Source: Halobacillus karajensis (lineage in GTDB: Bacteria > Bacillota > Bacilli > Bacillales > Halobacillaceae). Taken from it: a stretch of DNA of 64,000 nucleotides. Location of the stretch: positions 1-64,000 of the forward strand of contig NZ_FNWW01000002.1 of NCBI RefSeq assembly GCF_900108515.1, given 5' to 3'. Every line of letters starts with the position of its first letter. The first letter of the stretch is position 1. The notes under the pieces are model-generated. The model did not search any database. It was not told the DNA's origin and saw nothing but the letters and a program-made list of their open reading frames with translations. Shown piece by piece: positions 32,647-34,173 of this stretch. The translations under genes were made by a program, and so were the position numbers.

Positions 32647-32720
32647 GTCCCAGTAGCTCAGCTGGATAGAGCAACAGCCTTCTAAGCTGTGGGTCGGGAG
32701 TTCGAATCTCTCCTGGGACG
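32647..32720 (+). tRNA. tRNA-Arg (anticodon TCT)
   Basis: 74 nt; acceptor stem GTCCCAG/CTGGGAC with discriminator G. CCA is not encoded. The anticodon loop CTTCTAA gives TCT (32681-32683) on stem ACAGC/GCTGT; the T-arm contains GTTCGAATC. Confidence 0.97.
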
Positions 32721-32730
32721 CTAACTATGA

Positions 32731-32772: not shown

Positions 32773-33119
32773 TTATTTCCTTATAGAAGTGGGAATGGTC
32801 TTGACCGGGTACTATAACCCCGTTAGAGGCAGAAGAGGGGCTGGATTTTACTTTGATTTATGAGTATCTGGTTCTCATTGAATTGATGGGGAAAAATACT
32901 CTTATACGATCAGAAGTATAACGAAATGGAAGCCTACATTTAAAATGGAGAGATCAGGATGATTGATTCAGCAGCCCCATAATCAAAAGGATTTTAGAAT
33001 CGTACTAACCAATACACATTCAGGAAGATGTAATGAATAATGCCCCTCCAAACGTTGGTATGAAAGGTTTTTCTTATTTGAAAATTATGGAATGAAAGGT
33101 ATTTTAAGGACAATTATGT
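32773..33119. other. Intergenic, no gene recognised
   Basis: About 350 bp between the tRNA terminator and the toxin locus. Stops interrupt all frames; no RNA family, repeat or promoter beyond the toxin -10 (TATAAT, 33120-33125) was recognised. Confidence 0.5.
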
Positions 33120-33180
33120 TATAATCTTAATAGATAGTCATTCATTCAACACCATGATTGATTACGATAGGGCGGTTGAG

Positions 33181-33201
33181 ATCACCCGGAAAGGGGGTGA
33201 T
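33181..33201 (+). promoter_or_regulatory. Hairpin sequestering the toxin ribosome-binding site
   Basis: ATCACCC (33181-33187) pairs with GGGTGAT (33195-33201), which is the toxin's own Shine-Dalgarno (GGGGGTGA). Such anti-SD pairing limits translation of type I toxins. Confidence 0.6.
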
Positions 33202-33204
33202 TTC

Positions 33205-33306
33205 ATGACGATCTTTGAGGCGATTTCAATAATGATCTCTTTTTCTACGATGATCATTACACTAATCGCTGTGATTGTCGCTATTTTTTCAGCAACAAAA
33301 AAGTAG
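33205..33306 (+). CDS. Holin-like type I toxin peptide
   Basis: A 33-residue peptide opening 'MTIFEAISIMISFSTM', continuing as one hydrophobic helix and ending in a Lys-Lys tail. The short charged N-terminus, 'FEA' followed by a single transmembrane segment, and the Lys tail are hallmarks of the putative holin-like (Hol_Tox) toxins of Firmicutes, close to the TxpA/BsrG group. Such peptides insert in the membrane and are silenced by an antisense RNA overlapping the 3' end of their mRNA. The Shine-Dalgarno GGGGGTGA lies in a hairpin. It sits near the tRNA genes at the edge of an accessory region. Confidence 0.78.
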   Translation: MTIFEAISIMISFSTMIITLIAVIVAIFSATKK

Positions 33307-33340
33307 CCCCCCTGTCGGCTAACGGGTAAGGGCTACTTTT
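33303..33340. terminator. Bidirectional terminator at the toxin 3' end
   Basis: GTAGCCC (33303-33309) pairs with GGGCTAC (33330-33336). TTTT follows on the plus strand and TTTTTT on the minus strand. Confidence 0.65.
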
Positions 33341-33385
33341 CGATTTAGATAACGCCAATCCCCTATCAAAGAATGGCTATCATTG

Positions 33386-33414
33386 GACCACAGTTCGCGC
33401 TGTGGTCTTTTTAT
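33386..33414 (+). terminator. Second terminator of the toxin mRNA
   Basis: GACCACAG/CTGTGGTC with a TTCGCG loop, followed by TTTTTATT. It gives a toxin mRNA long enough to pair fully with the antisense RNA. Confidence 0.8.
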
Positions 33415-33433
33415 TATATGATTTGTTACCCCT

Positions 33434-33442
33434 ATAATACCA
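33434..33442 (-). promoter_or_regulatory. Extended -10 promoter of the antisense RNA
   Basis: On the minus strand TGGTATTAT gives a TGn extension plus TATTAT. A clear -35 is lacking, which is tolerated by extended -10 promoters. Confidence 0.45.
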
Positions 33443-33909: not shown

Positions 33910-34173
33910 ATGAACTATGTAAAAGCTGATGATGTGTTACCAGAGGAACTTGTTTATGAAATACAGAAATACGTCCAGGGAAGGACGCTTTATATTCCTA
34001 AACCTAAAGCTGCTTATAAAAAGTGGGGCGCTTGTTCAGGGGCAAGAGCTTACATCAACGAGCGTAACTGTTTGATCAAAGCTGACTTTTCAAATGGTGA
34101 AACCATCGAAAAATTAACAAATAAGTATTATCTTTCAGAGGATACCATTAAAAAAATTATCTATTCGAGGTAA
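33910..34173 (+). CDS. CD3324-family protein (Mor-like HTH)
   Basis: An 87-residue protein with the N-terminal signature 'MNYVKADDVLPEELVYEIQKY' in two halves (VKADDVLP and EELVYEIQKY), 'LYIPK', 'KKWGACSGA' and a C-terminal helix-turn-helix-like end 'YYLSEDTIKKIIYSR'. This matches the CD3324 family, distantly related to the Mor transcription activator of phage Mu, so a DNA-binding role is likely but untested. ATAAGGAG lies 9 nt before the ATG. It has its own structured leader and terminator, so it is a single-gene unit. Confidence 0.75.
   Translation: MNYVKADDVLPEELVYEIQKYVQGRTLYIPKPKAAYKKWGACSGARAYINERNCLIKADFSNGETIEKLTNKYYLSEDTIKKIIYSR

Follow-up and report, generated by a model that had tools for sequence, protein, structure and literature searches.

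Whether a short gene for a hydrophobic peptide in Halobacillus karajensis forms a type I toxin-antitoxin locus with an RNA from the opposite strand is the question raised by the DNA studied here. We analysed a stretch of 64,000 nucleotides (contig NZ_FNWW01000002.1; hereafter the window), in which the initial annotation had placed a holin-like peptide gene of 33 residues. The ORF list contains this gene, which is located at 33205-33306 on the plus strand, starts with ATG and encodes 33 aa plus a stop codon (MTIFEAISIMISFSTMIITLIAVIVAIFSATKK). A search against Hol_Tox (PF16935), which had been suggested as a check, was positive, with 41.6 bits (curated cut-off, 23.3 bits; E 1.1e-10) over profile positions 1-33 of 34. 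Hol_Tox was the sole Pfam match of the peptide at E values up to 1, with no Fst-family match, and the scores for the equivalog models PepG1 (NF041589, 21.1 bits) and ComI (NF052249, 12.4 bits) were under the NCBIfam cut-offs of 70 and 55, respectively. The best 19-residue mean Kyte-Doolittle value over the 33 aa was 2.68; judged from its sequence, the product is a small hydrophobic single-helix peptide that may sit in the membrane. A genome search revealed three Hol_Tox loci in this genome, the window locus among them.

Upstream of the ORF, an extended -10 element, TGTTATAAT, was found at 33117-33125 on the plus strand, in agreement with the toxin -10 reported initially, and no good -35 candidate was recognised by eye. 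With its start placed from this -10 and its end at the terminator T2, the predicted toxin mRNA is ~283 nt long (33132-33414, plus strand). A 286-nt plus-strand RNA (33129-33414) folded with -109.4 kcal/mol, corresponding to a z-score of -9.0 against shuffles. The Shine-Dalgarno (SD) sequence AAAGGGGGTGAT at 33190-33201 on the plus strand had a duplex energy of -23.5 kcal/mol with an anti-SD sequence. In the predicted fold, it lies within a hairpin at 33178-33204 on the plus strand, whose 10-bp stem pairs 33178-33187 with 33195-33204, and six of the eight SD bases examined had a paired probability of ~0.99, consistent with the earlier placement of the ribosome-binding site in a hairpin. The SD stayed paired in three mRNA models (full, T1-terminated and antisense-bound), and the stem was 10 bp in the mRNA alone and 11 bp in the antisense-bound model. 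According to these models, the SD is sequestered in the predicted toxin mRNA.

Two terminator hairpins were identified by predicted folds and terminator scans. T1 (~33297-33340) covers the toxin stop codon and was assigned as the antisense RNA terminator on the minus strand, being weak on the plus strand. T2, the putative toxin mRNA terminator, has its hairpin at 33385-33408 on the plus strand and a U-rich tail reaching 33413; it lies about 80 nt beyond the toxin stop codon with its U-run on the plus strand, just where a second terminator had been proposed. A simple terminator scan detected T2 on the plus strand and, at T1, just a 5-bp minus-strand sub-hairpin (33321-33304), its loop limit hiding the full T1 on both strands. 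In a looser scan, the plus-strand version of T1 had nine pairs and the tail TTCGATTT, and scored weakly. Separately, we observed that positions 33313-33323 in the T1 loop form an 11-nt exact complement to the 5'UTR of a paralogous Hol_Tox mRNA (L002) in the same genome; the T1 loop is not conserved in relatives, so this complement may be a matter of chance.

To place the window among its relatives, we counted the same parts in 111 distinct Hol_Tox loci, drawn from the 129 of 135 loci with a toxin HMM score of at least 12; these loci are partly related, and the counts are not independent. At T1, the scoring gave a minus-strand terminator for 97 of the 111 loci (14 of 555 shuffles) and a plus-strand one for 46 (41 of 555); at T2, it gave a plus-strand terminator for 97 (76 of 555). 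Given these frequencies, T1 is most likely mainly a minus-strand terminator, so that the antisense RNA would end at T1 and the toxin mRNA at T2. Thus, of the bidirectional terminator once proposed at the stop codon, the minus-strand part is well supported and the plus-strand part is weak. Of the 111 loci, 74 had an extended -10 at a distance of 5-60 nt beyond T2 (1 of 555 shuffles), and the combination of minus-strand T1, plus-strand T2 and this -10 occurred in 73 loci and in none of the 555 shuffles. Each Hol_Tox locus of the window genome (L001-L003) had all three parts. The extended -10 was absent from the expected place in 37 of the 111 loci, and 30 had none anywhere in the stretch; minus-strand T1 was absent in 14.

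Ten of these 14 loci (L025, L026, L032, L033, L034, L035, L080, L087, L091 and L092) represent a second Hol_Tox class, with peptides of 22-30 aa that do not have the KK end; the other four are L008, L036, L095 and L109. Three short-class peptides examined had sub-threshold matches only to ComI or PepG1. Because this short class is without minus-strand T1, a Pfam match alone is no proof of an antisense RNA, and we discarded family membership by itself as a criterion for calling a type I system. One contig region (G037 C1:768164-772134) carried three Hol_Tox matches in one orientation within 4 kb. Start codons were also variable. Among the 106 loci counted (5 of the 111 were skipped by the motif), 36, including L002, L010, L027, L030, L101 and L117, had a codon other than ATG, GTG or TTG at the usual start position, about 8 nt 3' of the SD: CTG in 14, ATT in 9, ATC in 5, ACG in 5, ATA in 2 and GTC in 1. 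An in-frame ATG two codons upstream, within the SD, was present in 30 of the 36. Such near-cognate starts could possibly hold toxin translation low in those loci.

Beyond T2, the opposite strand of the window contains the extended -10 TGGTATTAT at 33442-33434 (minus strand), as initially described, and no good -35 was seen by eye. From this -10, T1, the fold and the conservation in relatives, an antisense antitoxin RNA of ~131 nt is predicted at 33297-33427 on the minus strand. This RNA folded with -46.2 kcal/mol (z -5.2 against shuffles), and Rfam gave no family at the window locus at gathering cut-offs. A second -10-like sequence, TATAAT, is located within the T2 tail (33418-33413, minus strand), and the antisense 5' end is therefore uncertain by about 20 nt. 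Since the mRNA would end at T2, the antisense RNA, with coordinates placed as above, would be complementary to ~118 nt of the predicted mRNA, extending beyond the toxin 3' end alone. An RNA of about 130 nt overlapping the toxin 3' end had been proposed before; the length holds for the predicted RNA, and the overlap is larger than was stated. We infer the antisense transcript from its -10, terminator and fold, which are conserved in many relatives.

The 5' end of the toxin mRNA is predicted to fold onto its own 3'UTR through a helix, P1. In the minimum free energy (MFE) folds, the 5' strand of P1a, GATAGTCATTC (33133-33143, plus strand), pairs with 33371-33381, and that of P1b, GATAGGG-c-GGTT (33166-33177, plus strand), pairs with 33357-33367, so that the 3'UTR strands of P1 occupy 33357-33381 on the plus strand. 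Inspection of the MFE folds by eye showed the 5' end paired with the T1-T2 stretch in all four intact loci of the window subfamily, with the inner part of this pairing rearranged in L006; four intact loci are too few for a covariation count. We then calculated duplex energies for 96 loci. The 5'UTR gave a mean of -36.8 kcal/mol with its own T1-T2 stretch vs -26.3 kcal/mol with those of other loci, and the own partner had a median rank of 12.5 of 96, some ranking near the bottom (window, z -2.5). On average, the duplex test supports P1. Since the ranks were poor for some loci, a count over alignment columns was preferred.

For this count, 28 of the 96 loci, with a 'YEV' type toxin and belonging to another subfamily than the window, which is not one of the 28, were aligned. 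RNAalifold found P1 unasked, with 22 pairs. Paired cells amounted to 95.6% in the 28 relatives, compared with 87.3% in shuffled and 35.5-59.9% in slid alignments. Cells changed on both sides numbered 54 against 13.9 +/- 4.3 in shuffles, and the covariation score was 0.398 against 0.234 +/- 0.012. Pairs with a double change numbered 8, with no excess over shuffles (7.0 +/- 1.3; 189 of 500 reached 8). These results show that a helix equivalent to the window P1 covaries in 28 relatives of another subfamily.

Loci of the window type were collected by several searches. The locus DNA matched 10 of 150 genomes, two of them across just 28 and 34 bases, and the antitoxin half matched 6 of 44 family genomes; a pattern search for the antitoxin in the named genome collection gave seven stretches. 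A covariance model from eight antitoxins found matches in 45 of 397 genomes of the order (the own genome is included in the DNA, antitoxin-half and covariance-model counts), and the eight window-type antitoxins aligned with a mean column identity of 84%. Merging of these searches yielded 11 distinct window-type loci. The toxin ORF was intact in four, namely the window, L005 (H. andaensis), L006 (Halobacillus sp. Marseille-P3879) and L038 (Lederbergia galactosidilytica; identical to L137). It was lost or broken in seven: L007 (H. halophilus AcN7-4), L008 (Thalassobacillus pellis, frameshifted), L009 (H. litoralis SL-4), L037 (Bacillus sp. HF117_J1_D), L138, L141 and L142. The covariance model gave 51 matches, of which 30 were examined as loci. 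Twenty-three of these (L143-L165) scored lower, and with L152, at a contig end, set aside, the other 22 all keep an ORF (20 by HMM score; L161 and L164 by eye).

Inspection by eye showed T1 and the middle of the antisense half to be retained in the seven toxin-less loci. Their antisense extended -10 is intact in L007, L037 and L138; L008, L009 and L141 carry an altered version, and L142 has none. In a tree of the 11 antitoxins, with mostly low node support, the terminal branches of the toxin-less loci were 0.094-0.222 and, for L142, 0.565, and those of the intact loci were 0.030, 0.032, 0.055 and 0.156 (window). Three intact branches are shorter than any of the seven toxin-less ones, and the fourth, that of the window, is longer than five of them. 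These branch lengths do not favour the idea that lone antitoxins are under strong selection. Because four of the seven antisense promoters are altered or gone, and because the antitoxin served as bait, so that toxin-only loci would escape, most of the toxin-less loci look like relics in decay. For two lone antitoxins, exact complements to the remaining Hol_Tox mRNAs of the genome concerned were only 7-10 nt long. It is doubtful that the antitoxin RNA of this subfamily is selected in its own right, being kept without toxin in several Bacillota as an anti-addiction or trans-acting RNA, with the T1 loop of the window recognising a paralogous toxin 5'UTR. A type I antitoxin gene without toxin, as in the relatives of the window locus, is known from orz of E. 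coli, described in the cited text as the first confirmed report (PMC11264685). It differs from the present cases in that the lone antitoxins here are predicted, in relatives of the window locus, and that four of the seven have an altered or missing -10. We take orz to belong to an E. coli family different from the window-type antitoxins.

The locus is flanked by a tRNA-Arg gene (32647-32721) on one side and a CD3324-family gene (33910-34173) on the other. In 20 of 21 other genomes of the genus, the side with a ysnB-like gene and the tRNA matched, and similarity to the window ended at or before 32,785; the 21st (L187) gave a bare tRNA match in which the site is not visible. The DNA holding the locus thus seems species-specific at a site just past tRNA-Arg. 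Neither the locus DNA nor the toxin peptide had a match in the plasmid and phage collections, one exact antitoxin pattern had no match in viral contigs, and no prophage context was recognised by eye among ORFs of at least 110 aa between 26 and 44 kb. Elsewhere in the window, a T-box leader was found at 1604-1821 on the plus strand (Rfam RF00230, 101.6 bits).

The layout had been compared with TxpA/RatA and BsrG/SR4, and this comparison holds, with the elements present in the window and recurring in relatives. As described in the cited passages, txpA/RatA and bsrG/SR4 have 3' overlaps of ~120 nt, with an older estimate of ~75 nt for txpA/RatA, and published type I systems hold the ribosome-binding site by four or five GC pairs and involve RNase III cleavage (PMC3531473, PMC6562991, PMC4147584). 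In B. subtilis, loss of rnc is tolerated after removal of txpA and yonT (PMC3531473). Judged from the predicted coordinates, the overlap of ~118 nt is close to the ~120 nt published for both, and the antisense promoter and terminator, as sequence elements, are placed for such an overlap. The locus resembles bsrG/SR4 of the B. subtilis SPbeta prophage in its small membrane peptide, overlap, RBS within a stem and P1; by the published passages, SR4 contacts the 3' part of bsrG helix P1, wording which suggests that this helix connects both mRNA ends (PMC6562991, PMC4147584). It differs in that the bsrG SD stem is reported to go from 4 to 8 bp, whereas that of the window model goes from 10 to 11 bp. 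With txpA/RatA of the B. subtilis skin element, it shares convergent RNAs, each with a terminator, that form a duplex over the greater part of the final 120 nt, and a very long SD complement (PMC3531473, PMC6562991), while TxpA, with 59 aa, is longer than the 33-aa window peptide (PMC4147584). Systems like bsrE/SR5 and bsrH are already reported in Halobacillus, the genus of the window locus, at loci that the cited passage leaves unspecified (PMC6562991), and RNA-seq of B. methanolicus, in the part cited, gave an SR4-like antisense RNA with an overlap of ca. 120 bases, the toxin peptide being 19% identical to BsrG (PMC4342826). In view of these published systems, the window locus would join an already known kind.

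Could the membrane-peptide gene instead be without a real antisense RNA, its minus-strand -10 being fortuitous and its translation controlled only by the mRNA fold? The family leaves some room for this, in that Hol_Tox also covers the 22-30 aa peptides with no KK end that make up 10 of the 14 loci without minus-strand T1. However, a fortuitous -10 fits poorly with the recurrence of this element 5-60 nt beyond T2 (74 of 111 loci, 1 of 555 shuffles), with the minus-strand terminator score of T1 (97 of 111 loci, 14 of 555 shuffles), and with the retention of T1 and the middle of the antisense half where the toxin is lost or broken; we regard this explanation as quite improbable. An Fst/par-like system, with one shared bidirectional terminator and an antitoxin blocking translation through repeats, would account for convergent RNAs, a hairpin at the stop codon and the weak plus-strand score of T1. 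Its chances are very slim, since the only Pfam match of the peptide at E values up to 1 is Hol_Tox and there are two separate predicted terminators, each lying within the body of the other RNA. Equally little weight falls on a decayed, inactive locus in variable DNA: seven of 11 window-type loci have a lost or broken toxin, and the DNA around the locus has no match next to the corresponding tRNAs of 20 further genomes in the genus, but the window has the ORF and the SD stem, an extended -10 and a terminator for each predicted RNA, and P1.

We therefore favour, with a probability of about 0.88, a Hol_Tox-type (TxpA/BsrG/BsrE-like) toxin-antitoxin system of type I, encoded on the chromosome. This reading draws on sequence elements, the family match, predicted folds, and the conservation and covariation in relatives, from which we infer that both RNAs are transcribed, that the peptide is toxic, that RNase III acts on the pair and in which order the RNAs pair. 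In the proposed mechanism, an RNA of ~131 nt would be transcribed from the minus strand, beginning just beyond T2 and terminating at T1 across the toxin stop codon; it would match the final ~118 nt of the toxin mRNA with full complementarity. The antisense RNA would most likely pair first via loops and then open P1. The paired mRNA would become an RNase III substrate, with the SD stem remaining closed. If the supply of antisense RNA failed, translation of the mRNA could give a membrane peptide with one helix, which would arrest growth.

For work on type I systems of Gram-positive bacteria, the window would offer a clean, testable locus from a halophile. Judged from the comparison, an arrangement with two terminators and an mRNA helix joining the 5' and 3' parts seem to be common in Hol_Tox loci of the same order, and the toxin-less relatives may serve as material on the decay of type I systems and the retention of a lone RNA antitoxin.
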